Shown: piece by piece, positions 18,259 through 64,000 of the stretch | Layout of the letters: each line of letters starts with the position of its first letter | Position numbering within the stretch: position 1 is the first letter of the stretch | NCBI GenBank assembly: GCA_026129685.1 | Contig: JAHCHO010000004.1 | Coordinates: 62,001 to 126,000 of the forward strand | Direction: 5' to 3' | Source of the DNA: Fimbriimonadaceae bacterium | Lineage (GTDB): Bacteria > Armatimonadota > Fimbriimonadia > Fimbriimonadales > Fimbriimonadaceae | Length of the DNA: 64,000 nucleotides | Notes under the pieces: generated by a model | What the model was told of the DNA's origin: nothing | The model's database searches: none | What the model saw: the letters and a program-made list of their open reading frames with translations, nothing else | Position numbers and translations under genes: made by a program

Positions 18259-21075
18259 TTACTCGCGGTCCCGGTTTCGTTTGGCCTCGAGAAGACGGGA
18301 GGCGGCGGATTCGCCGGTCGAGGCGCGTGTCGGGGTTGGGGTGGGCCGCGAGGGTTCGACACGCACGGCGGGTCGTTCCGTCTCCGCCGTTTGGGGTGGC
18401 TTCGCCGCCCGGTCCCTGGCCTTCTGGAGTCGGGCGACGGTGGCCTGTTGCGGGACGTCGGCGGGGACGCGTCCACGGCGGGCACGGAGGAGGGCGACAA
18501 GCTTGGCCAGCAGCTCGCCGAAGGGAAGCGCGACCCGGCGCATCGCGACATCCAAGGGCAGGAGGAGGGCGGCGGCCCAAACGAACCAAGGCCATACGTC
18601 GGTGATCGACGCGCCAGACTTGGACACCGGGCGGAAGGAGTCGCCCGGCTCAGCGAGCGCGCGGCCGCCCGTGATCTGGGCGGCCCTGGCCAGGGGTCGC
18701 TCGTTGGCGCGGTAACTGCGGTATTCGGGCGGGTAAGCGACGGAAAACCCGGCCGAGCGGACAGCGGGCTTGCCGTCGGTCCCGGGTTCGGAGACGGTCA
18801 CGGTGTAAGTTCCGAGACGACTGGCGCGGAAGCGGCCTTGGAAGACGCCGGGCGCCTGCTGGGTCAGGTTGAGGGCGCGCGATTCGCCCTGGGGGGCACC
18901 GAGCCGGACCTCGCCTTCGAGGGCGGGCAAAGGGTTGCCCAGGGAGTCGAACGCCTTGATCTCGACGACGTTGTCGCCCCCTTCCTGACGGACCGCAACG
19001 CGGTAGTCGTTGCGCGTCGTGCGACGACCGATCGCGCGGAGGGCTTGGCTCCAGAACCGGCCAAAGCCGTCCCAACTCACCCACTGGGCCGCCCAGCGTG
19101 CCTGGGCGTCGGAGGTGAAGGCGAGGGACGAGCCGAGGCCATACTGCCACGTCGCCAGGAGAGGGTCGTCCTTGTGGGTTCGCATCCCGGTGCGGGCGAG
19201 GGGTCGGCGGTCGGTGAGGCAGTAGGCGTAAAGGGCGGGGATCGCGTTGGGAGCTATACCCCGCAAGGCGTCCTCTCCGTAGCCGACCTTGGGGAAGAAC
19301 GCGCCTTCCTCGATGGCGGAGCGGCTCATCACGGCGGCGTCCTGGGTGAAGATGGCGGGAAGCTGGCCGGCGCGCTTGGCGAGGTAGAAGCGGCCGCCGC
19401 CCGCGGCCGCCATCTGCTTGAGGAACGGCACGTCCTTGCCGTCGCCGATGGCGACGACGGAGGTGGTGATCTTCTCGCGGCGCATCTGGTCGACGATGTT
19501 GAGCGACGCGCCATAGAGGTCGACGTCCGCGCCGTCGGCTAGGAAGATGAAGTGGCGGACCTTGCTTCCTTCGGCGCGGAGGGACTTCGCGGCAAACTGG
19601 GAACTGGGCTCGGCGTAGACGCCGCCGCCGCCGACGCCGAGCTTGCGAATCTGGGAGATCACGCGCTCCTTGTCGTCGAGTTTCTGCATCGGGGCGACGA
19701 ACTGAATGTTGTCGGTGCTACCGGCGACGCCGACGCGGTCGAGGGGGGACAGAAGGCGAACGGTCTGCTCGGCGGCCATTCCTGCGAGGCGGATTTTCTC
19801 GAACCCGTCTTCGACCATGCTCATGCTGCCGGAGGCGTCCACGACGATCAGGATCGAGGTGCTGGGGAAAGACTTGCGCTGGCGGATGTTGAGGTCCACG
19901 GGGAGGGCGTCGGCGACGGGGGTGCCGTAGTATCCGCCCGGCAGAAAGCTGTTCTCGCCGCCGATCATCGCGAACCCGACGCCGGTGTCTTTCACGGTGG
20001 ACTCCAGGGCCTTCATTTGCCCCGGGGTGAGGGAGGCGGCGTTGAGGTCGTTGAAGACGATGGCGTCGTAGCGCTGGAACTCCTCAGGACGGACGGGAAC
20101 TTGGCCGGGTCCGCCCAGGTCCACGTCCAAGCCCTGTTTGCGGACGGCGTCGACCAGGTGGGTGTGGCGGAGATCGGACTGGAGAACGAGGATACGGGGA
20201 CGGCCGCGCACGGCGACGAAGCCCGCGCCGACGTTGTTTCGGATGTCGGTATCCCTTTCGGCGGTCAGGGTGGCTCGGTAGCGGAAGAACCCGGGACGCG
20301 CCAACTTGTCGCTCAGGACGACGGCGTTCTTGCCCTTGGTGAGGCTGACCGCCACCCGGTGGATCATCTGGCCGTCGCGATCGAGGGTGAGGATCGCACG
20401 CTGATTGGTCGAGGACTCGGCGAGAATCCGGAGGTCGAAGGGCTGATCGGCGCGGACATCGGAGGGGGCTTCGAGATCAAGGACGGTGGCTTCGCCCGTG
20501 CGCTCGGTCTGGCCGAGGAGAACGTAGTCGAGTTCGATGCCGTCGGTGGCGGCGACGTCGGCGGCTTCGACGAGATCGCCATCGGTCTCGTTACCATCGG
20601 ACAGCACGACGACGCGTCGAGAATGGCCCTCGGGGAAGGAGGCGGCGGCGAGGCGAACGGCGGCGGCGAGGTCGCTTGCGGAACCGTCGACCACGGAGGC
20701 GATCTTGCCGAGTTTGCGACGTCCGCCGGGCGCGGCCTCGATGACGGCGTCTTTGCCGAAGGCGATAACGCCACCGACGTCGTTAGGGCCGAGAGCGGAC
20801 AAAGCTCGGTCGGCGAACTCGGCGGCGCGGTTTCGGTCGCGATCGGAGACGCTGTCGGATCGGTCAAGGAGGAAGATCGTCGCGACTCCTTCGTAGGGGC
20901 GGTGGAGTTGCGGCCCGGCAAGGGCCAAGATCAAACACGCGGCGAGGAGGAATCGGAGGGCAAAGGCAAGGCGTTTCCGCGCCTTCGCCATGCCGTGGAC
21001 GTGGCGAAAGGAAATCCAGAGTCCCGCTACGGCGGGGACAAGGAGCAAGAGGTAGAGGGGCGTGACGAAGCGCAC
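18259..21075 (-). CDS. Large membrane protein with two VWA domains and a GATase1-like domain
   Basis: A 938-residue protein. Two membrane spans at the N-terminus (PLYLLLLVPAVAGLWISF and FALRFLLAACLILALAG) precede a first von Willebrand factor A domain (IFLLDRSDSVS). A glutamine-amidotransferase-like segment follows (RPRILVLQSDLRHTHLVDAV to GFAMIGGENSF). A second VWA domain has a complete MIDAS (VVDASGSMS, then later FLADGADVD). Beta-sandwich segments and a C-terminal membrane span (VWPWFVWAAALLLPLDVA) lead to a long basic, Ala-rich cytoplasmic tail. Such proteins occur with MoxR ATPases, DUF58 and BatA-like partners. Metal-dependent protein binding in the periplasm is inferred. Three bases separate it from the upstream BatA-like gene. 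Confidence 0.82.
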   Translation of the reverse strand: MRFVTPLYLLLLVPAVAGLWISFRHVHGMAKARKRLAFALRFLLAACLILALAGPQLHRPYEGVATIFLLDRSDSVSDRDRNRAAEFADRALSALGPNDVGGVIAFGKDAVIEAAPGGRRKLGKIASVVDGSASDLAAAVRLAAASFPEGHSRRVVVLSDGNETDGDLVEAADVAATDGIELDYVLLGQTERTGEATVLDLEAPSDVRADQPFDLRILAESSTNQRAILTLDRDGQMIHRVAVSLTKGKNAVVLSDKLARPGFFRYRATLTAERDTDIRNNVGAGFVAVRGRPRILVLQSDLRHTHLVDAVRKQGLDVDLGGPGQVPVRPEEFQRYDAIVFNDLNAASLTPGQMKALESTVKDTGVGFAMIGGENSFLPGGYYGTPVADALPVDLNIRQRKSFPSTSILIVVDASGSMSMVEDGFEKIRLAGMAAEQTVRLLSPLDRVGVAGSTDNIQFVAPMQKLDDKERVISQIRKLGVGGGGVYAEPSSQFAAKSLRAEGSKVRHFIFLADGADVDLYGASLNIVDQMRREKITTSVVAIGDGKDVPFLKQMAAAGGGRFYLAKRAGQLPAIFTQDAAVMSRSAIEEGAFFPKVGYGEDALRGIAPNAIPALYAYCLTDRRPLARTGMRTHKDDPLLATWQYGLGSSLAFTSDAQARWAAQWVSWDGFGRFWSQALRAIGRRTTRNDYRVAVRQEGGDNVVEIKAFDSLGNPLPALEGEVRLGAPQGESRALNLTQQAPGVFQGRFRASRLGTYTVTVSEPGTDGKPAVRSAGFSVAYPPEYRSYRANERPLARAAQITGGRALAEPGDSFRPVSKSGASITDVWPWFVWAAALLLPLDVAMRRVALPFGELLAKLVALLRARRGRVPADVPQQATVARLQKARDRAAKPPQTAETERPAVRVEPSRPTPTPTRASTGESAASRLLEAKRNRDRE

Positions 21076-21078
21076 GGC

Positions 21079-22905
21079 CTAGGACCTCCTCGCGAAGAGC
21101 CACCATTCTGCGCCGAGCACGAGCAGTCCCAGCAGCAGAAGGGGGCGCCAGAAGTCGGCGTAGCGGACGGGGGTGGCGACCGCCTTGACGGTCCCGCCGC
21201 CCAGGGACAGCGACGGAACCGGGGCGATGTTGGACTCGCGTTCGTTGCGCAGGGAGGCGAAGAGGGTCTTCGTCGTCTTGCCCAACCGCAGTTCGTAGCG
21301 GCCCACCCGGTCCAGGTCGCGAACCCGGGCCTGGCCGTCTTCGACCTTCAGGGCGAGAGACCGTCCGGAAGGGACGACGAGGCTCGGGCGGTCGGCGGCA
21401 TCGGCGGGTAAGTTGAAGGTCGATCCTGCCGGGACGGCGAGCACGTCGGCGGCGGCCTTACCGGCTAGGAAGTCGAGGACGTTGGCGACGAAGATCGGGA
21501 ATCCGACCTGAAGGGGAAAATCGGAGTCAAGGACGCGGAAAGCGAGGTATGCCCGGCGCTGCTTGCCCTCGTCGACCACGAGGAGCGAAGTCTGGCTCGA
21601 CTCGCTCAGGGTCCGCGCGGTGGCTTTGGGCGTTACCTTCTGCGCGGAGTCGATGAAGACGTTGCGGAGGTCCACACCGTCGAGGATGGGGTGGTTCTCG
21701 GCGGAGACGGCGATCGGGTTCTTCACGGTGCCATTCGCGCGAACGGGCGACGGTCCGCCCGCGACGCCGAGGGTCAGGACGCCGCGGGAACGAACGGGCT
21801 CCTCGGCGATCCCGTCAAAGACGACGATGTCATAGGTGGACGCGGGGCCGGTCGCGCCTTGCTCAGAATCCGGCACGGCCTGCGCGCGGTCGAGCGTGAC
21901 GCGCGGATCGAGGGAGAGCGCCCGCTCGAGGAAGGGGTCTCCTTGGGTCACGAGGAGGACGCGAAGGGCGGCGTTCGGGTCGGTGACGGTGACGGCGTAG
22001 TCGTCGGCCACGAGGGCGTCCGGCGGGTTGAGGCGGGCCTCGATGGCCTTGACCCCGGCAGGAACGGGGACGGTGCGGCCCGTCGTTTCGCCCGGCTTGG
22101 CGAGGAGTTTGGCCGAGTCCAGGACGCGGCCGTCGGCGTAGATCGTCAACGTCGTGCCGGCAGGGGCCGCCCCAAAGTTCCGGACGCCGCAGTAGGCGAG
22201 CCTTCCTTCGGTCGTGACGGAACTGCCGAGGGCCACGATGGCGAGGTTTTCGGCGGTCTGGCCGAGGGACCGGTAGACGACGGCGGCCTTTCCGGGGGCG
22301 AAGTTCTGCGGTGGGTCGAACGCGCCGTCGCTGAGGAGGACGATTTGGGCCGATTCCTGGTTCGCGACGACGGCGGCGGCGAGGCGCAGGGCCTCGCCCA
22401 CATCGGCGGCGGCGTCGTAGCGGCGGCAGGACTCCAGGGCCGCGACCTGGCGCGCGGGGTCGGTCGAGAGCGGGAAGACGACGCGGGGAACGGGACCCGC
22501 TTCGATGAGGGCCATTCGATCCCCGGTGGACGCGGCGCGGACGGCGTCGCGGACGAGGCGGAGTCCTTCGTCGAACCGGGTAGGGGCGACATCGGTCGCG
22601 CCCATTCCGGCGGAAGCGTCGAGGACGAAGACGGTGACCCGGCCGCTGAGTCCCGCTTGGCGGGTCAGCGGGCGGGCCAGGGCGAAGGCAAGGGCGATCA
22701 AGGCCACCAACTGAAGGACGAGGAGCCAGCTGAAGCGCAGACGTTGGAAGAGGGTGTTGGCGCGGACCTCGTCGGTTCGGGAGGGCCAGAGAAAGGTGGC
22801 GGGCACGGTGAGGTCTTTGCGCCGGATTTTGAGGAGGTAGAGCAGGACGATGAACCCGGCCAGGGGAAGCAAGGCGAGCAGGACGCCGGGGTTCTGGAGG
22901 TTCAT
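21079..22905 (-). CDS. BatA/aerotolerance-type membrane protein with degenerate VWA domain
   Basis: A 608-residue protein with the N-terminal BatA-type pair of membrane helices and basic loop (NPGVLLALLPLAGFIVLLYL, LKIRRKDLTVPATFLW, then WLLVLQLVALIALAFALAR). The following VWA-like domain reads VFVLDASAGMG where a MIDAS D-x-S-x-S would be expected, so metal binding may be altered. A GATase-like fold and beta-sandwich lead to a last C-terminal span (FWRPLLLLGLLVLGAEWWLF). It resembles the family found beside MoxR and DUF58 in many bacteria. The ATG at 22905 overlaps the DUF58 stop (ATGA); an ATG four codons upstream is less likely. Confidence 0.82.
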   Translation of the reverse strand: MNLQNPGVLLALLPLAGFIVLLYLLKIRRKDLTVPATFLWPSRTDEVRANTLFQRLRFSWLLVLQLVALIALAFALARPLTRQAGLSGRVTVFVLDASAGMGATDVAPTRFDEGLRLVRDAVRAASTGDRMALIEAGPVPRVVFPLSTDPARQVAALESCRRYDAAADVGEALRLAAAVVANQESAQIVLLSDGAFDPPQNFAPGKAAVVYRSLGQTAENLAIVALGSSVTTEGRLAYCGVRNFGAAPAGTTLTIYADGRVLDSAKLLAKPGETTGRTVPVPAGVKAIEARLNPPDALVADDYAVTVTDPNAALRVLLVTQGDPFLERALSLDPRVTLDRAQAVPDSEQGATGPASTYDIVVFDGIAEEPVRSRGVLTLGVAGGPSPVRANGTVKNPIAVSAENHPILDGVDLRNVFIDSAQKVTPKATARTLSESSQTSLLVVDEGKQRRAYLAFRVLDSDFPLQVGFPIFVANVLDFLAGKAAADVLAVPAGSTFNLPADAADRPSLVVPSGRSLALKVEDGQARVRDLDRVGRYELRLGKTTKTLFASLRNERESNIAPVPSLSLGGGTVKAVATPVRYADFWRPLLLLGLLVLGAEWWLFARRS

Positions 22906-23789
22906 CGGACGACCCACGCCTCCCGGCGTCCGGTCGTACGGAGGAAGTCCTCGACGGAGGCTTCGGAGCGGACGGTGGCGATCCGTCCGCCGCAGCGGCG
23001 AACCGCTTCGGCGATGCGGGCCTGGTGCGCGCGCAGGTTCGCTTGATACCCCCGGAGGGCATAGCTGTTGGCGGTGATCTCGACGGTGCCGTCGGTTTCG
23101 GAGTCGAGGAGACGGAGGTCGCCCTCCAGGTCGGGTTCGAGGTCCACGGCGCTCAGGATCTGGAGGAAGAGGACTTCGTGGCCACGGGACGCCAGGGCAC
23201 GGACGCCGGCCTCGATATCGGGGTCGAGGCCGTCGGAGAGCAGGATGGCAAGACCGGGACGGGCGTCCCCGGCGGCGAACGCGCGGAGGGAGCGTGCGAG
23301 TCCCTCGCGGCCCTCGGGGGGGTCCGAGGAGAGTCGTCGGACGAGTTTCGGGTAGGTGGCGCGACCACGGATCGGGGGTGCGGGCGCCTCGCGCGTCCCG
23401 AGGGACACGAGGAAGAGGGCATCGCCGGCCCCGAGCGCGACGTGACCGAAGGCGGCGGCGAATCGGCGGGCGGCTTGAGCTTTGGAGGGATCGCCGAAGG
23501 ACATGGAGGCGGAACGGTCGAGGAGGAGGTGGACGGCGAGGTCCTCTTCGTCCTGGTAGGTGCGGACGACGGCGTTCTCAAGGCGCGCGTAGACGTTCCA
23601 GTCGAAGTGGCGGAGGTCGTCGCCCTCGGCGTACTCGCGGTAGTCGGCGAACTCGATGCTGACGCCCTTCTTGCGGCTTAGGCGCTCGCCGCGCACGCGC
23701 CCGGTCGGGGGCTTGCGCGGATTGAAGCGCAGACCTTCGAGGAGCCGGAACTCCTTTGGGGTGAGGATCAGGTCGGCGGTGGCGGGCAG
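22902..23789 (-). CDS. DUF58 protein, probable CTG start
   Basis: A 295-residue cytoplasmic protein with the DUF58 signature RGERLSRKKGVSIEFADYRE, EGDDLRHFDWNVYARL, and a VWA-like LLLDRSASM. DUF58 proteins work with MoxR ATPases. The only ATG/GTG/TTG in the N-terminal region is a GTG at 23696, which would remove conserved residues LTPKEFRLLEGLRF. An in-frame CTG at 23789 lies six bases after an AAGGTG ribosome-binding site and four after the moxR stop. I therefore place the start there. The 3' end overlaps the BatA-like gene. Confidence 0.85.
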   Translation of the reverse strand: MPATADLILTPKEFRLLEGLRFNPRKPPTGRVRGERLSRKKGVSIEFADYREYAEGDDLRHFDWNVYARLENAVVRTYQDEEDLAVHLLLDRSASMSFGDPSKAQAARRFAAAFGHVALGAGDALFLVSLGTREAPAPPIRGRATYPKLVRRLSSDPPEGREGLARSLRAFAAGDARPGLAILLSDGLDPDIEAGVRALASRGHEVLFLQILSAVDLEPDLEGDLRLLDSETDGTVEITANSYALRGYQANLRAHQARIAEAVRRCGGRIATVRSEASVEDFLRTTGRREAWVVR

Positions 23790-23792
23790 CGG

Positions 23793-24797
23793 TTACACCT
23801 TGATCGGGTCGCGGTCGTGGCCCTCGACGTGGGCGAGGATGCGATCGAGCAACGCGTCCGGATCAAGGCCGTCCGCTTCGGCTTCGAAGTTGGGAAGGAC
23901 GCGGTGCCGAAGGGCCGGCTTCATCGCGCGTTTGAGATCGTCCTTCGACACGTTGTAGCGGCCGGCCAGGAGGGCATAGACCTTTGCCGCACCGACGATG
24001 GCCTGGGCGCCTCGGGGAGAGGAACCGTACCGGACGTAGCGGCGGGTGACCTCGGGCGCGCCTTCGGTCGAAGGATGGGTCGCCACGACGAGCGAGAGGG
24101 CGTAATCGAGGACGTTTTCGGCTACCGGGACCTCCCGAGCGATCTCACGGAGACGGAGAACGTCGGCTCCGGTCGCGACGGGCTCGATGGACTGGGTGCG
24201 CGTTCCGGTCGTGCGCAGGACGACCTCGGCGAGTTCGGACTTGCTGGGGTAGGGCACGAGCAGTTTGAAGAAGAAGCGATCGAGTTGGGCTTCGGGCAGG
24301 GGGTACGTGCCCTCCTGCTCAATCGGGTTCTGGGTTGCCATCACCAGGAAGGGTTCTTGTAGTTCGTGGCGGCTGCCGCCGACGGTGACCGACCGCTCCT
24401 GCATCGCCTCTAGCATCGCGGACTGGGTTTTCGGAGTGGCACGGTTGATCTCGTCGGCGAGGACGAGGTTGGCGAAGATCGGTCCCCGACGGAACTCGAA
24501 GCGACGCGCGCCGCTTTCATCGTGGGCGAGCACGTTCGTGCCGGTAACGTCGGCGGGCATCAGGTCGGGCGTGAACTGGAGCCGACCGAAATCCAGGCTC
24601 AGGGCCTGAGCGAGGGAGCGAACGAGCAGAGTCTTGCCGAGACCGGGCATCCCCTCCAGGAGCACGTGGCCGTTGCAGGCGAGACCGACGAGGACGCCCT
24701 CGACGACCGATGCCTGACCGACGATGACCCGCTCGACCTGGGCTCGGACGGCGGCGAAGGTATCGCGGAACCAGGCGGCGGCGGCTTCGCCACTCAT
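23793..24797 (-). CDS. MoxR family AAA+ ATPase
   Basis: A 334-residue AAA+ ATPase. The Walker A motif GMPGLGKT, Walker B with NLVLADEINRATPKTQSAML, the sensor-1 segment FLVMATQNPIEQEGTYPLPE, and the arginine-finger region AQLDRFFFKLLVPYP are complete. MoxR proteins are chaperone-like ATPases that act with VWA proteins, here supplied by the next three genes. A good AGGAGG ribosome-binding site sits 8 nt before the ATG, overlapping the end of the preceding reading frame. This signals strong translation inside the operon. Confidence 0.95.
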   Translation of the reverse strand: MSGEAAAAWFRDTFAAVRAQVERVIVGQASVVEGVLVGLACNGHVLLEGMPGLGKTLLVRSLAQALSLDFGRLQFTPDLMPADVTGTNVLAHDESGARRFEFRRGPIFANLVLADEINRATPKTQSAMLEAMQERSVTVGGSRHELQEPFLVMATQNPIEQEGTYPLPEAQLDRFFFKLLVPYPSKSELAEVVLRTTGTRTQSIEPVATGADVLRLREIAREVPVAENVLDYALSLVVATHPSTEGAPEVTRRYVRYGSSPRGAQAIVGAAKVYALLAGRYNVSKDDLKRAMKPALRHRVLPNFEAEADGLDPDALLDRILAHVEGHDRDPIKV

Positions 24798-24809: not shown

Positions 24810-25133
24810 CTAACCTCGGGAGAGGCCTTCGAAATACTCGCGCACGCGTTTTTCATGTTCTTTCGGAATCTCCTTCTTGTCGATCGCGCTTTCCATTCTC
24901 GTGCGGTACTTGGGCAGGACTTTGAGGTACGGGACCGAGGACCGGGTGCCCAGGGCGGTGGGCGCCTTGATCTCGACGAACGTTTCCTCCCCTTCGTTGC
25001 GACGTTGGCCGCGCACCTGGGTGGGCGTGGTTTTGCCGGCCCCGGGCTGCTCTTGGTCTTCCATGGCGTTGTCGCCCGCGCCGGCATAGAACATGTCCTG
25101 GCTTCGCCCGCCCTTGCCACGGCCAAGGCTCAA
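24810..25133 (-). CDS. C-terminal tail segment of the coiled-coil protein, separated by one UGA
   Basis: A 107-codon segment in the same frame as the 411-residue coiled-coil gene just upstream, with only the UGA at 25173-25175 and 13 further codons between. It contains a Gly-rich part (LGRGKGGRSQDMFYAGAGDN), then VEIKAPTALGT, and ends SVPYLKVLPKYRTRMESAID, KKEIPKEHEKRVREYFEGLS. To my knowledge of this family the closing VPY-to-YFEGL helix pair is the C-terminus of the same coiled-coil membrane proteins in related clusters. It is either the end of a selenoprotein read through the UGA, or a separate protein starting at TTG 25133 or ATG 25094. No close ribosome-binding site precedes either. Confidence 0.6.
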   Translation of the reverse strand: MSLGRGKGGRSQDMFYAGAGDNAMEDQEQPGAGKTTPTQVRGQRRNEGEETFVEIKAPTALGTRSSVPYLKVLPKYRTRMESAIDKKEIPKEHEKRVREYFEGLSRG

Positions 25134-25141
25134 ACCCGATG

Positions 25142-25175
25142 CGGAGAGAACCTCTCCGACCCCGAGACCGCTTCA
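25142..25175 (-). promoter_or_regulatory. In-frame UGA followed by SECIS-like hairpin
   Basis: The UGA (25173-25175) is followed after 14 nt by CGGAGAG, loop GTT, CTCTCCG (25158-25142): a perfect 7-bp stem with a 3-nt loop starting with G. The loop begins 21 nt after the UGA. From memory, bacterial SECIS elements have a 3-14 nt loop with a G in its first two positions, 16-37 nt from the UGA. The frame continues for 120 codons past the UGA. A selA gene lies in this window. The GGAGAGG in the stem could instead be a ribosome-binding site, though it lies far from the next start. Confidence 0.4.
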
Positions 25176-26408
25176 CCCACCCTCGCAGTTCTTCATCGCT
25201 TCGAGCATCTCGCGGAGGTACTGCTCAAGAGCCTCGTCCGACTTGAGCTTGTCGGCCAGCTCTTCGAGTTTCTTGCGCATGGCTTCGAACTGCTCGCGGG
25301 TCAGTTCGCCGCGCTGGCCCTGTTGCCCGGCCTGGGCTTCCTTCCGGAGCTTCTCGGCCAACTCCCGCAGCTCTCTGTAAAGGGGATGGTTGCGAACCCG
25401 ATCGAGGAAGTCCTTCGCTTTCTTCGAGAGCTCGAACTGATTCTTGGCGGTCTGCGCCTTTTCGAGTTCCTCCTCGAGCGCCTTGCGCTCGTCCTTACTC
25501 AGGTTCGGGTTCTGGAGCTTTTCTTTCAGCTTGGCGATCTGCGCGTCGAGTTGCTCGATCGCCTGGTTCAGCTCTTGATCGCTGAGCCTCATCTTTTCGG
25601 GATCGGCCCCCTGCAACCCGGCCTCGGCGAGTTTGGACTCCTCCATCTTGCGCCAGGCGGACTCGGCCTTCTCAAAGTACTTATCGGCCTGCTTGAATCG
25701 TTCGCGGGCGAGTTCTTCCGCTCGCTTGGCGAAGTCGTTGGCCTTCTGCATCGCCTCTTCTTTGCCGAGGCGTCGGCGCCTGAGTTCTTCGGCGAACCGG
25801 CGCATCTCGGCGGCGAGGGCCCGTTCGTCGGCGGTCAACGCCTCTTCGGGAATCTTGGCGACGGGCCGGAGGATGCGCTCGACCTTTGCGGCGGCGAGCT
25901 TCAGCTCATCGCGCTCCTGGCGAGCGGCGTCTCCGAGCCACAGGGGGGTCCCGCCGAGCAGAAAGACGGCGGAAGCGACCATTGCGGTGCCCATCGCAGA
26001 CCAATGGAGGCGACCGACGCGCACGGGGAAGAGGCGTCGGGGATGGAGTGCGGCCAGACGGGCCTGGGCGTCCCCGAGGAGGGGTTCGTCGAATTCGGCG
26101 GCGCCGTCCACATGGTGCAACGCGGTTCGGAGTCGATTCTGAAGCCCGGCGCGTCGGTCGATCGAGTCCGCGAGGTCGGTGACGGAAACACGCCGACAAA
26201 AGCCGACTACCGCCCCGAGGACGCTCGCGCCGAAGACGAGAAGCGCCAAGCCGGCCCAGGTCGCGAACCAAACGCCGGTCCAGTCAAGGATGCTCCATGC
26301 GACGGCGAGTCCCGAGCCGACCCAAGCGCCGATCCCGGCGCCCTTCCAGGCACCCATCCAACGCACTCGCCGAACAAAACGGCGCAACCGGCTGCCGAGG
26401 TCATCCAT
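25173..26408 (-). CDS. Coiled-coil membrane protein of the MoxR/VWA cluster
   Basis: A 411-residue protein up to its UGA. After a basic start, residues 20-75 hold two membrane spans (GAGIGAWVGSGLAVAWSIL and WAGLALLVFGASVLGAVVGF). A SVTDLADSIDRRAGLQNRLRT-type segment (positions about 80-100) precedes a third span (GTAMVASAVFLLGGTPLWLG). From about residue 180 a very long Glu/Lys/Ala-rich coiled coil runs to NCEGG at the UGA. This layout is common beside MoxR and VWA genes in planctomycete-like bacteria; the role there is unknown. The ATG at 26408 overlaps the upstream permease stop. The same frame continues past the UGA and would extend the protein to 532 residues if read as selenocysteine. 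Confidence 0.8.
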   Translation of the reverse strand: MDDLGSRLRRFVRRVRWMGAWKGAGIGAWVGSGLAVAWSILDWTGVWFATWAGLALLVFGASVLGAVVGFCRRVSVTDLADSIDRRAGLQNRLRTALHHVDGAAEFDEPLLGDAQARLAALHPRRLFPVRVGRLHWSAMGTAMVASAVFLLGGTPLWLGDAARQERDELKLAAAKVERILRPVAKIPEEALTADERALAAEMRRFAEELRRRRLGKEEAMQKANDFAKRAEELARERFKQADKYFEKAESAWRKMEESKLAEAGLQGADPEKMRLSDQELNQAIEQLDAQIAKLKEKLQNPNLSKDERKALEEELEKAQTAKNQFELSKKAKDFLDRVRNHPLYRELRELAEKLRKEAQAGQQGQRGELTREQFEAMRKKLEELADKLKSDEALEQYLREMLEAMKNCEGG

Positions 26409-27981
26409 GGTTTGCCACTCTTGGAGGTACGCGCGAACCGCGACGAGGGATCCAACACGCCGCCACCGCGAACACGATACCAAAGACGGCGAGTTCGATC
26501 GCGGCGATCCAGGTGTCGGGCTGAGGTCCGGCCAGAAGCGGCCAAAGCGGATAGAGCTTCCACATCGAGTGGCCGACGGCGGACGGCGGATCGTAGGTCA
26601 TCGTGCTGATGACTACGGGTGGCAGGAAGGTCAGCAGGACGACGGCGGCCGACCACATGAGGCGCGCCGACCCGACGGTGACGGCCAGGCGGCTCGCCAG
26701 CCGGGCGAGGCCCCAGTAGGCGAGCAACAGCCCAAGGGACCATGCCGCGTAGGCAGCGAAGCCGGCATCGGGCAACGGCAACGCGAGGACCGCCATCCAC
26801 GCCCAGAAGGCGAGGACGAGGGCGCCCCACAACATGGCGAGATAGGGAAGGGCACCGGACGGAGACCCTCGCCAAACGCCGCGCCACGAAAACCAGCCGT
26901 CGTCTTGGTAGCGGCGACCTTGGTCGGGTCCGTAGCAGGCCAGATGCGCGACGAAGAGCGAGAGGAAGAGGGCGCACCATCCCAACGCCAGTGAAACGGC
27001 GTCCCCCACGCTGGAGGCGGCGGCAGGCGTGGCTCCGATCATCCCTGCGAACCCGGAGAGTCCCTGACCGACCATCGACCCGAACATGGCGAGGATTGCC
27101 ATGTACAGGAGCCCGTGCAGGCGCAGGCTACGGGTCTCACCCGAATCGAGAGGGCTGAGGGTCGCGGCGGCGGAAAGGACGCAGAGCTTGGTGAAGGCCA
27201 GGGCGAGGACCAACACGATGATCCAGTTCGGCACGTTCGTTCCGGCGATTACGGTGTAGGTACCAGGGACGAAGGCGACGGCGGCGGGGTTCAGGCAGAC
27301 GGTGAAAGGCGCTTCTCGACTTCCGCCGCCGGGAACAAAGGCCATGGCCCCGGTGCTCGCGAAAACGGCGGTGCCGATGAAGTAGAGGACGGCGATGGCG
27401 TAGGACTGGATGACCGCCGAAACGACTTTGGCCGCGGTCGCCGAGATCAGGAGAGAGACGGACGTGAGGATCAGGCCGATCAGAGACAAGAGGATGTAGC
27501 CGACGATCACGTCCTGCCAGGTCGCGCCGCCGAGGACGACGCAGGTCGCGGTGATAGGCAGGGAGAGAACGAGAAGCATCCAGGAGTAGCGGTAGCTCGC
27601 GACAATCTTGCCGACCAGGAAGTATTTGGGTTCGACGGGAGACGAGAAGACGAGATCGAGCGATCGGCGGATGCGCTCGGACACGACGGCGGTGGCGGTG
27701 AGACCGGGGGCGACAAGGACGACGGTGGTCCCCAGGAAGCCCATCATGGTGTAGTAGAAGCCCTGGAGCTGCCCTTGGGCGCGGGTGACGCTGATCTCGC
27801 GGCCGGTCTCGATGTTCGTGTAGTTGAGTACGGCCAAGAGGATCATGACGGCGAGGTAAACGCCCCAAAGGATGGGCGCGCGGAACCCACGCAACTGGGC
27901 GCGATAGTCCCGGACGGCGACGGCGTTGCCGACGTAGGTCTCGACGTTGCGGCGAATCCAGCCGGGACGCGGCACGCTCAT
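26401..27981 (-). CDS. ABC transporter permease, ABC-2 type
   Basis: A 526-residue membrane protein with about 12 hydrophobic spans. Its first half has the ABC-2 pattern of a first span (FRAPILWGVYLAVMILLAVL), then a second after a periplasmic segment and the conserved SERIRRSLDLVFSSPVEPKY coupling-helix segment that contacts the ATPase. The second half repeats membrane helices and ends in a basic tail. It forms an exporter with the adjacent ATPase and second permease. The start abuts the ATPase stop directly (TAGATG). Confidence 0.85.
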   Translation of the reverse strand: MSVPRPGWIRRNVETYVGNAVAVRDYRAQLRGFRAPILWGVYLAVMILLAVLNYTNIETGREISVTRAQGQLQGFYYTMMGFLGTTVVLVAPGLTATAVVSERIRRSLDLVFSSPVEPKYFLVGKIVASYRYSWMLLVLSLPITATCVVLGGATWQDVIVGYILLSLIGLILTSVSLLISATAAKVVSAVIQSYAIAVLYFIGTAVFASTGAMAFVPGGGSREAPFTVCLNPAAVAFVPGTYTVIAGTNVPNWIIVLVLALAFTKLCVLSAAATLSPLDSGETRSLRLHGLLYMAILAMFGSMVGQGLSGFAGMIGATPAAASSVGDAVSLALGWCALFLSLFVAHLACYGPDQGRRYQDDGWFSWRGVWRGSPSGALPYLAMLWGALVLAFWAWMAVLALPLPDAGFAAYAAWSLGLLLAYWGLARLASRLAVTVGSARLMWSAAVVLLTFLPPVVISTMTYDPPSAVGHSMWKLYPLWPLLAGPQPDTWIAAIELAVFGIVFAVAACWIPRRGSRVPPRVANHG

Positions 27982-28911
27982 CTAGTTGACCGCCCCGGTG
28001 GTGAGTTTCAAGAAGACGTCCTCAAGGTCGGCGTGTTCTTCGCGGAAGTCCACGATGCGGTGGCCCTCGGCGATCAGGCGGGCGAGGAGATCGGCCTGTT
28101 GCTCGTGGGTGCCGGCGTAGTCGAAGACGACCTCGCCCTCGGGGTTCGCTCGGGGGCTCGCGGCGAGCGGGTCTTTGGCAACCGCGTCGGAGAGGTCGTT
28201 CGCCTCTCCCAGGGTGCGGACGGAGATGGCGCGCGTCGTGCGCAGTCCCTGGACGATCTGCTTGACGGGGCCAAAGCCAACGAGGTCGCCCCGTTCGATG
28301 ATGCCGACCATGTTGCAGAAGTCGGACAGTTCGGGGAGGATGTGGGAGCTGACGACGACGATCTTGCCCATGCGGCCGAGTTCAAGAATCAGTTCTTTGA
28401 GTTCGGCGCGGGCGCGGGGATCGAGTCCGGAGGCCGGCTCGTCGAGCAACAGCAGTTCGGGGTCGTGGACGAGGCACTTCGCGAGGCAGAGGCGTTGCTG
28501 CATTCCGCGGGAGAGGGATTGGACGAAGGCATCGCGTTTGCCGGAGAGGTTGGTGAGTTCGAGCACTTGATCGATCACGCCGCCCCGTTGCTTCGGCGGA
28601 ATGCGGTAGACCGTCGCCCAGAAATCGAGGTATTCCCAGACCTTGACATCGTCGTACAGCCCAAAGAAGTCGGGCATGTAGCCGATCATGCGCCGGATCT
28701 GCATGGGGTCCTTGAGGATGTCCACGCCGTTGAGCCGGGCGGTTCCGCCGGTGGGTTCGAGGAGGGTCGCGAGCATGCGAATGGTGGTGGTCTTACCGGC
28801 GCCGTTCGATCCGATGAAGCCGAAGATGTCTCCCGGGTTCAGTTGGAAGCTGACGCCCCGGACGGCCTCGAGGGTGCCGTAGACCTTGCGGAGTTCGCGG
28901 ACTTCAAGCAT
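27982..28911 (-). CDS. ABC transporter ATP-binding protein
   Basis: A 309-residue ATPase starting MLEVRELRKVYG at ATG 28911. Walker A GSNGAGKTTT, the Q-loop, the signature SLSRGMQQRL (in LSRGMQ form), Walker B LLLLDEPASGLDP and the switch SSHILPEL are present. A C-terminal regulatory region follows. It belongs to the export-type (CcmA/NatA-like) group that pairs with ABC-2 permeases. The start overlaps the upstream permease by 8 bases. An ATG 11 codons upstream is less likely because it adds residues not seen in the family. Confidence 0.92.
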   Translation of the reverse strand: MLEVRELRKVYGTLEAVRGVSFQLNPGDIFGFIGSNGAGKTTTIRMLATLLEPTGGTARLNGVDILKDPMQIRRMIGYMPDFFGLYDDVKVWEYLDFWATVYRIPPKQRGGVIDQVLELTNLSGKRDAFVQSLSRGMQQRLCLAKCLVHDPELLLLDEPASGLDPRARAELKELILELGRMGKIVVVSSHILPELSDFCNMVGIIERGDLVGFGPVKQIVQGLRTTRAISVRTLGEANDLSDAVAKDPLAASPRANPEGEVVFDYAGTHEQQADLLARLIAEGHRIVDFREEHADLEDVFLKLTTGAVN

Positions 28912-29755
28912 GGGGTTTCCTGGGTATGAACTTGACGTCGCCATCGGCGAAGTGCAGGGTCTTTTCGGCCCAGACGACGGCGCCGACGCTCAGGGCGAGG
29001 TTGATGGCGATCTGGGGCAGGCCGATCCACTCGCGGGCGGCAAACTCCAAGCCCGGATCGTGGGGGTCGGCCAGAACGCCGATCGTGACGAAGGGATGGA
29101 AGTAGAGGAGGATCACGCTTTCGGCCCCCACGAAACGGGTGGCGTTCAGGAACAGGGGGTAGAGAACGAGCACCACGAACATGGCGACGAGAGCGATGCC
29201 CAAGGTAACGAACGCGCGCTTGGTCCGGGCGGAGAAGAGCAGGGTCAGGGCGGCCGCGAAGAACCCAAAGGTGATCGAGATGCCGTCCATCATCACGAGG
29301 TCCCAGAAGGTGTAGCGTCGGTATTGGTCGCCCCACATGTACGGGTTAACTTCATAGGAGAAGTAGGTGACGCCGAGCATGGGGAGGAACAAGGCGGCGA
29401 CCAGGAGGATCAGAACGCAGCCACCGAGGTACTTGCCCCAGACGATTTGGCCGGCGGTCACGGGGGCGGCGACGAGCATGTCCCAGGTTCGCTTTTCGCG
29501 TTCGCCGGAAACGGCACCGTGGGAGACGCTGGGGCCGATGAACGCGAAGAGAAACGTCTGGAAGTAGACCAGCCAAACGGCGTCGATGTACTGGGCGTAA
29601 CGGACGACCACCCCGGCCGCGACGACGTAGACCGCGCCGACGAGATAGAGGGCGATCTGGCCGCCGGCCCGGGTCCGACCGAGGAAGCGCTGCTGGGCGC
29701 GTCGAATCTCGACGAGCATCGGGTTCTCGGTAACGAGGTGTCGCCAAGCGGTCAC
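28904..29755 (-). CDS. ABC transporter permease, ABC-2 type (second)
   Basis: A 283-residue protein with six membrane spans and the ABC-2 coupling segment GEREKRTWDMLVAAPVTAG, typical of gliding or multidrug-type exporters. It starts with GTG at 29755, overlapping the upstream stop (GTGA), and is read first of the three exporter genes. With the ATPase and the larger permease it makes a heterodimeric exporter. The substrate is not visible. Confidence 0.87.
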   Translation of the reverse strand: MTAWRHLVTENPMLVEIRRAQQRFLGRTRAGGQIALYLVGAVYVVAAGVVVRYAQYIDAVWLVYFQTFLFAFIGPSVSHGAVSGEREKRTWDMLVAAPVTAGQIVWGKYLGGCVLILLVAALFLPMLGVTYFSYEVNPYMWGDQYRRYTFWDLVMMDGISITFGFFAAALTLLFSARTKRAFVTLGIALVAMFVVLVLYPLFLNATRFVGAESVILLYFHPFVTIGVLADPHDPGLEFAAREWIGLPQIAINLALSVGAVVWAEKTLHFADGDVKFIPRKPHA

Positions 29756-31659
29756 GAGCCGACCTCCGATGCGCGCCCGACGAAAAGCAGGCGGATGCTC
29801 GAGGGGCGGCGGCTGCCGAGTTGGGGTCCGAGGGACTCGGTCTCGATGTCGGCGGTGACGAGGACGACGCGCGGGTCGGCTCCCGTCAGGCGTTCGGGCT
29901 GGGGGAGCTCTTGGACGGTCGTCGGGTCCAAGTCGATCGCGAACTCCTGGCCGGGTTCGAGGCTCGCCCCGAGGGGAATGGAGACCCTGCCTTGGAAGAG
30001 CACGGGGCGCACGAGGGTGTAGGAACTCGTGTTTCGGACGGTGCCGCGATACCGTTCCCGGGCGTTTCGCAAGCGGGCGGGCACGAATCGCAGCTCGAGA
30101 AGCTCGCCGGAGTCCACGGCCTGCCTAAAGTCGAACTGGCGGAAGCTCAGGTTGGGGACGCCGAGGGAGGGGATGCGCATCCCGTCTTGGTCGACGACGG
30201 CGCAGTCGGCGGTCGTAATGCCGTACGAGGCTTCCAGCGAGGGGGCGATCCAGTCGGTGCGCGGAAAGGAGAGGTCGTACGAGCCGCCGGTGGGGAAGAA
30301 GACTTGGGCGGTGCCATAGACGCGCCCGCCGGGGATTCCCTGGGCGGCGACGAGGCTTCCGGTCACCAGGCGCGAGAGCCCGGCTTTGTACAGCTCGCGG
30401 GCCGAGTAGAACAGAACTCCCGCGAAGAGGAGGCTCAGGACCGGGGCGGTGATCCAGGCGAGTTCGCCACGCCCAAGGCGACGAAGCGCCAGGAAACTGA
30501 CGGGCACGACCAGCACAAAGTAGACGGAGAGGATAAGGATGATCTGACCCGCGTCGGGCAGTCGGGTCTGAAACGGATCGGGGTCGGTGAACGTCCTGGC
30601 GGTGACGGAGGACGGGGGGCCGCCGATCACCGGACTCGAGAACGTGGCCGACCGGGTGGGGTCCACCTCGCCAAGCCCGTACACCATGCGGACGGAAGCC
30701 CGCTGGTAGGGGTCGGCGATGTCGAGGAGGGCGTCGCGGCGGCCGTCCCAGCCGGTCAGGGGGGATTCGAAGAGGTTGAAGGCGAGGAAGGTGACCTTGC
30801 CCAGCCCGACGCGCCACTCGACCACGAGCGGGCCGGACGGCGTCGCGAAGCGGACCTTGGTTCCCGGTTTGGGGGCGTTCGCGGTCACGGTGACGGGATC
30901 GTCCGGGGGTCGCGAGGTCGAGAGGGGGGCGACGGCCGTTCCGGGTACGGTGGCGGCGCCACGGGGCTTGACGGGGAGAAGCCGATCCCAGCGCGCGTCG
31001 GCGAGCACGGGCGTCGACGAGCCGCCCATGAAGACGAGGGAGCCTCCGCCCACGACCCAGCCTTCGATGGCGGCGACCTGGGCGTCGGTGAGGCGCTCCG
31101 ATCCTTCGCCGAGAACCAGGGCGGCGAGGGGGTCGAGGCCGATCTCGCGGTCGGGAAGGTCTTCGGCGGGCACGTAGGCGTCCCCGACAAAGGCCCGTTG
31201 CGGACTCCGGTTGTTCGGAGCGTTCTGCGCGGGGCGAGCGTCGCGTAGAAACCCCATGAGCCCGGGAGTATCGGTGACGAGGGCGATCGCGTTCTCCGAG
31301 TCCAGGGAGCCGGCGGGATTTTCGTAGAACTTCTTGAGCCGGCCACGGTTCGAATCGAAGAGGACGGTGGTCTGGCCGAGGGGGAGGCGCGCCACGACGG
31401 TGACGGCCTTGCGGGCGCCTTGAGGCAGTTCCACCGGGACGACCATCTCGCCGGCGTCCCCTTGTACGCGGATCGCACCTTGGGCGGGCGGGCCGAGGTT
31501 CTCGAGGGTCACGCGCAAGGGGAACGGCGAGCGACCCGAGCGCAGACCCTCGTAGAGGGGCCGGACGGACATACGAAGGTCCTGCGAGATCGCGCCGACG
31601 GCCGGCGCGACCAGCGCGAAGATCGCAACGAACCGGCCGATCGTCGTCCTCGTCGTCAT
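29752..31659 (-). CDS. Membrane protein with GATase1-like and beta-sandwich domains
   Basis: A 635-residue protein. A signal or first span (FVAIFALVAPAVGAIS) precedes an Ig-like beta-sandwich (PFPLRVTLENLGPPAQG). A glutamine-amidotransferase-like segment follows (GLDPLAALVLGEGSERLTDA, IEGWVVGGGSLVFMGG). Two membrane spans lie near residues 365-420 (AGQIILILSVYFVLVVPVSF and ITAPVLSLLFAGVLFYSARE) and the rest is a C-terminal beta-rich domain. No enzyme residues are evident. Similar proteins sit with ABC-2 exporters and VWA genes; a structural partner is inferred. The next gene starts inside its stop (GTGA). Confidence 0.78.
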   Translation of the reverse strand: MTTRTTIGRFVAIFALVAPAVGAISQDLRMSVRPLYEGLRSGRSPFPLRVTLENLGPPAQGAIRVQGDAGEMVVPVELPQGARKAVTVVARLPLGQTTVLFDSNRGRLKKFYENPAGSLDSENAIALVTDTPGLMGFLRDARPAQNAPNNRSPQRAFVGDAYVPAEDLPDREIGLDPLAALVLGEGSERLTDAQVAAIEGWVVGGGSLVFMGGSSTPVLADARWDRLLPVKPRGAATVPGTAVAPLSTSRPPDDPVTVTANAPKPGTKVRFATPSGPLVVEWRVGLGKVTFLAFNLFESPLTGWDGRRDALLDIADPYQRASVRMVYGLGEVDPTRSATFSSPVIGGPPSSVTARTFTDPDPFQTRLPDAGQIILILSVYFVLVVPVSFLALRRLGRGELAWITAPVLSLLFAGVLFYSARELYKAGLSRLVTGSLVAAQGIPGGRVYGTAQVFFPTGGSYDLSFPRTDWIAPSLEASYGITTADCAVVDQDGMRIPSLGVPNLSFRQFDFRQAVDSGELLELRFVPARLRNARERYRGTVRNTSSYTLVRPVLFQGRVSIPLGASLEPGQEFAIDLDPTTVQELPQPERLTGADPRVVLVTADIETESLGPQLGSRRPSSIRLLFVGRASEVGS

Positions 31660-63647: not shown

Positions 63648-64000
63648 ATGAGCGGCGAACTGCGACTCTTGCCCAAGGTCGACGCGTTGCGCGCAACGCC
63701 CGAACTCGAACCGTTTGCCGATCGGGTTCGGACGGCGGCGGCGCGGCGGGCGATCGAGCGGGCGCGCGGGGCCCTCGTCGCGGGGGAGCCGTTCGATCTG
63801 GCGTCGTTGCCCGCAATCGCGCTCGAGGAGGCGAGGAGGATGGGGGAGGCGACGCTGCGCCCGGCGATCAACATGAGTGGGGTGGTGCTTCACACGGGCC
63901 TCGGTCGAGCCCGCCTCGCCGAATCGGTCGCCGACCGGGTGTTCGAGGTCGCGCGAAGTCACGCCCTTTTGGAGTTGGACGCCGAGACGGGCAAGCGCGG
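63648..64000 (+). CDS. selA: L-seryl-tRNA(Sec) selenium transferase SelA, 3' end missing
   Basis: The first 117 residues, cut off by the window end. The N-terminal helical part (LRLLPKVDALRATPEL, RRAIERARGALVAGE) is followed by ATLRPAINMSGVVLHTGLGR and ARLAESVADRVFEVARSHAL, then LELDAETGKRG, which follow the SelA pattern of L-R-P-x-I-N-x-T-G-x-V-L-H-T-N-L-G-R-A and L-E-Y-D. SelA turns Ser-tRNA(Sec) into Sec-tRNA(Sec) with selenophosphate, the core step of selenocysteine synthesis. The PLP lysine lies outside the window. Its presence makes the in-frame UGA in the coiled-coil gene worth testing. ATG 63648 is the first start in the frame. Confidence 0.87.
   Translation, partial: MSGELRLLPKVDALRATPELEPFADRVRTAAARRAIERARGALVAGEPFDLASLPAIALEEARRMGEATLRPAINMSGVVLHTGLGRARLAESVADRVFEVARSHALLELDAETGKR

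Follow-up and report, generated by a model that had tools for sequence, protein, structure and literature searches.

An in-frame UGA in a MoxR/VWA operon of Armatimonadota almost certainly encodes selenocysteine in an apparently undescribed family of predicted membrane coiled-coil proteins

Bacterial selenoproteins such as FdhA and SelD are decoded through a bSECIS hairpin located directly downstream of an in-frame UGA codon, and a 2026 review lists 119 prokaryotic selenoprotein families (PMC13188914). Operons in which MoxR, DUF58 and BatA/VWA genes are encoded in a row are of the Bacteroides aerotolerance (Bat) type, which has been studied in Leptospira, and their function is unresolved (PMC3557215). 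DUF4175-type coiled-coil proteins of MoxR clusters have N-terminal membrane helices and a long coiled coil, and are encoded near moxR. The locus described here shares with the described selenoproteins a UGA codon, a hairpin within the published constraints, a complete set of sel genes and Cys-containing homologs, but none of the 119 listed families is a membrane coiled-coil protein of a MoxR/VWA operon, and no thioredoxin-like fold is predicted for its product. With Bat/MoxR-VWA operons it shares the MoxR, DUF58 and BatA/VWA genes in a row, from which it differs by an added selenoprotein and ABC-2 transporter genes; no selenoprotein is reported in such operons in the papers searched. DUF4175 was not among the Pfam or NCBIfam matches of this family.

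We examined a window of 64,000 nucleotides from the genome of a Fimbriimonadaceae bacterium (assembly GCA_026129685.1, contig JAHCHO010000004.1, positions 62,001 to 126,000); coordinates below refer to this window. The features of the locus are as follows.

24810-26408, minus strand: selenoprotein gene, 532 codons with the UGA read as Sec, plus a TAG stop
25176-26408, minus strand: part preceding the UGA, predicted membrane helices and long coiled coil
25173-25175, minus strand: in-frame UGA, codon 412, proposed Sec in NCEGG-U-SGLG
25142-25158, minus strand: SECIS hairpin CGGAGAG-GUU-CUCUCCG (apex GGUUC), loop 21 nt after the UGA
24813-25172, minus strand: coding tail following the UGA, with a predicted disordered Gly-rich linker and the conserved C-terminal helical pair (SSVPY...VLPKY...IPKEHEKRVREYFEGL)
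23793-24797, minus strand: MoxR AAA+ ATPase (Pfam AAA_3 and AAA_lid_2), next gene downstream
22902-23696, minus strand: DUF58 protein of the same operon
21079-22917, minus strand: BatA/VWA protein of the same operon
18259-21075, minus strand: large VWA protein of the same operon
26401-27981, minus strand: upstream operon gene, unknown membrane-type protein
27982-28944, minus strand: upstream operon gene, ABC ATPase
28904-29755, minus strand: upstream operon gene, ABC-2 permease
29752-31659, minus strand: upstream operon gene, unknown protein

A first-pass annotation, made from the sequence alone, had reported that a coiled-coil gene of 411 residues stops at a single UGA followed by an open frame and a hairpin, and had proposed that this UGA may encode selenocysteine in a 532-residue protein. 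The observation is confirmed. An ATG at 26408 opens 411 codons that end at a single TGA (25175-25173), and the same frame runs on for 120 codons to TAG at 24812-24810. Fourteen nt after the TGA comes a perfect 7-bp stem with a 3-nt loop, and the hairpin alone folds at -9.3 kcal/mol. Comparison with the published bSECIS model (3-9 nt loop, 4-16 bp stem, G in the first two loop positions, 16-37 nt from the UGA, MFE at most -7.5 kcal/mol; PMC13188914) shows that the hairpin satisfies each constraint. Taken alone it is only suggestive, since 770 of 20,000 synonymous recodings of the tail (about 4%) reach the same stem score, 430 of them with GGU, and the whole 54-nt stretch is not unusually stable against shuffles (z = -0.5). 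An Rfam scan of the window at gathering thresholds returned no match.

In order to determine whether the two halves belong to one gene, we searched 101 genomes and found full-length homologs, most of them single open frames, up to 47% identical. Homologs that are always two separate proteins would have counted against the selenocysteine reading in the terms of the annotation, and this is not what is observed. In the alignment the UGA lies at Cys in many homologs, for example KNCEGG-U-SGLG against KECEGA-C-EGAG, and relatives often have Cys at or beside the UGA position. The three invariant residues of the full-length alignment lie in the tail, and the tail keeps the coding periodicity of the upstream part (GC by codon position 0.65/0.48/0.76 against 0.72/0.43/0.80). 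The annotation's statement that the closing VPY...YFEGL tail belongs to the same protein in related clusters is right.

We next used a profile search of the phylum, which found matches in 149 of 291 genomes, of which 135 were read in detail. Since a family-wide MAFFT alignment misaligned the Gly-rich motif, UGA contexts were read per sequence. In 41 of the 135 genomes this domain holds in-frame UGA, 45 codons in all; 44 of these have Gly within the three preceding residues, and most read GG[TG]U. Within one subclade there is a direct TGC/TGA pair, as locus L070 has GGC-ACT-TGC where loci L068 and L139 have GGC-ACC-TGA and GGC-ACT-TGA. Some distant homologs (L064, L116, L123, two UGAs 15 codons apart, and L173, GGTUNSPGGTU) carry two in-frame UGAs, most with a hairpin of their own, so double-Sec forms of the family probably exist. 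On a maximum-likelihood tree the UGA state changes at least 18 times, and the window's nearest row is a Cys form. Twenty-seven of 133 homologs have neither Cys nor Sec. Several tRNA-Sec-positive lineages (L027, L029, L030, L033, L047, L051, L053 and others) have neither in this domain, and their motif region is Met/Gln-rich; the group is thus not essential to the family.

The absence of selB, selC and selD had been named beforehand as an observation that would speak against selenocysteine. The window's genome has tRNA-Sec with anticodon TCA, and SelA, SelB and SelD above curated cut-offs. The selD gene (L080, contig 1 of this genome, 144695-145600) itself has an in-frame UGA (CAG-U-AGK) followed by GCGGAGGUUCUCCGC, with a GGUUC-apex hairpin about 32 nt downstream; it shares GAGGUUCUC with the window's hairpin, although that 9-mer is not rare by itself. 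No FdhA above the family cut-off was found in the genome, whose other UGA-containing genes were not surveyed. The annotation's argument from clustering of selA is weak, because selA starts near 63663 and runs off the window end, and is thus about 37 kb away and not clustered with this gene. Among the 135 genomes, 38 of the 41 with UGA have tRNA-Sec, and the three without are incomplete assemblies (61-77% complete); of the 94 without UGA, 44 have tRNA-Sec and 50 do not, and none of these 50 breaks the pattern (Fisher p = 1.3e-7). With phylogeny controlled few pairs are informative (median p 0.06), so this association supports rather than proves the reading. Two genomes of the same genus both have tRNA-Sec but no match to this gene, and their best MoxR is only 44-45% identical, so that the whole operon seems to be missing from them.

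In order to test for a recoding signal across the family, we scored the best hairpin in each sequence, and scored the controls in the same way. For 44 of the 45 UGAs the best hairpin scores at least 12, with its loop 15-26 nt downstream, mostly 19-22 nt; there are 29 different stem ends, and GG is found at the 5' side of the loop in 38. The mean score is 17.2, against 10.4 for synonymous recodings of the same peptides, 7.6 for all other codons of these domains and 8.4 after Cys codons in UGA-less homologs, so that synonymous recoding removes most of the signal. Strong hairpins with GGU at the loop occur at 21 of 45 UGAs and in 1.6% of recodings. Covariation on a codon-aligned subset was weak, because that stem is nearly invariant (26 of 500 shuffles), and synonymous recoding was therefore used as the main control. 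Across the family the hairpin is far beyond chance.

The gene order unknown, ABC permease, ABC ATPase, unknown, this gene, moxR, DUF58, batA/VWA, large VWA is conserved where flanking sequence was examined, with insertions in a few genomes. An AlphaFold2 model (mean pLDDT 81) predicts helices 3-44, 51-71 and 133-153 in the membrane part, long helices to residue 424, a disordered stretch 426-490 and a helical pair 494-530; Sec412 lies near the end of the last long helix, where it runs into the disordered linker. A Foldseek search of the model against PDB returned nothing at E 0.001 or better, and Pfam, NCBIfam and PDB sequence searches returned only coiled-coil noise, the Pfam and NCBIfam matches of the window protein all lying below curated cut-offs. 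The family is absent from the 2026 catalogue (PMC13188914), and the deep-Sep paper does not describe it. Literature searches on selenoproteins together with MoxR or with Armatimonadota found nothing relevant, although they did not extend to most subscription papers or to a groundwater survey cited by the review, so an unseen mention cannot be excluded.

We conclude with very high confidence that the UGA at 25175-25173 is decoded as selenocysteine by the genome's own SelA/SelB/SelC/SelD system, guided by the hairpin just downstream, and the interpretation given in the first-pass annotation, which proposed no function, is supported. Selenium in the expressed protein was not measured, and no expression, labelling or peptide data were available for this direct proof. 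The recoding signal, the exchange between Cys and Sec, and the operon are shown by sequence comparison, whereas what follows on topology and function is inferred. Three membrane segments with a positive N-terminus would put the coiled coil and Sec outside the cytoplasm, which is uncertain because a hydropathy scan flagged only two regions. The protein is accordingly inferred to be an exported coiled-coil partner of a MoxR/BatA-type system, with its C-terminal part outside the cytoplasm. Most UGA-bearing members have a Cys 3-10 residues from the Sec, so that a selenylsulfide pair, here between Sec412 and Cys408, is the simplest reading, and this redox-active joint may modulate or sense the MoxR/VWA complex. 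Since some homologs have neither residue, the group is more likely a modulator or sensor than the core activity. This redox-joint mechanism is tentative and was not tested. Equally tentative is the broader view of a phylum-wide selenoprotein family forming a membrane-anchored coiled-coil component of a MoxR/VWA AAA+ system, in which Sec (two Sec residues in some lineages) forms a redox switch and links selenium to the unexplained function of Bat-type MoxR operons.

Other readings of the UGA appear very unlikely. If it were a true stop, the 411-residue protein would be complete and the tail would be either a second protein with its own start or a decaying remnant of a split gene; a TTG start at 25133 does open a 107-residue ORF, and purine-rich sequence precedes it within the hairpin. 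However, homologs encode both halves in one ORF, the tail holds the invariant residues with normal codon periodicity, and the interruption is UGA, at one motif, in 41 genomes, nearly all with tRNA-Sec and followed by hairpins. A sequencing or assembly error, a condition also named in advance by the annotation, or a recent nonsense mutation is similarly improbable: raw reads over the codon were not inspected and the nearest rows in the tree are Cys or lack both, but a hairpin of the right form and distance follows, sharing its apex with the selD hairpin of the same genome, and an error here would not explain UGA in the same motif in 40 other genomes. The refuting conditions named there were tested and mostly fail; as to the remaining one, homologs without Cys or conservation around the position, the position is Cys or UGA in many homologs. 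Reading of UGA as another amino acid, through a code change or general read-through, is the least likely; the frame does stay open, but other genes of the window end normally at stops, the genome has a complete Sec system, and the recurrent UGA is confined to one motif followed by hairpins.

The main rival concerns function rather than decoding. The Sec/Cys residues may bind a metal ion, for example in metal delivery to VWA MIDAS sites, instead of forming a redox-switching selenylsulfide. Many homologs have two or more Cys in the region, and MoxR has been postulated to load metal into Bat MIDAS domains (PMC3557215). We consider this unlikely, though not negligible, since the spacing and side of the partner Cys vary widely and the site runs into a disordered linker, which suits a flexible pair better than a fixed metal site.

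A reading of UGA as stop cuts these genes in two and loses the most conserved part of the protein in about a third of the homologs examined. The family adds a selenoprotein without a predicted thioredoxin fold, gives many Armatimonadota with tRNA-Sec a clear client besides SelD, and offers a chemical handle, a selenol with a nearby Cys, on MoxR/Bat operons. Named relatives are Armatimonadota (Fimbriimonadaceae, Chthonomonas and other lineages); the contig search reached essentially this phylum, and spread beyond it was not tested. One contig labelled as a Methanoregulaceae archaeon (L195, JADZEW010000022.1) carries the Armatimonadota-type operon, and is probably a mis-binned or mislabelled MAG.
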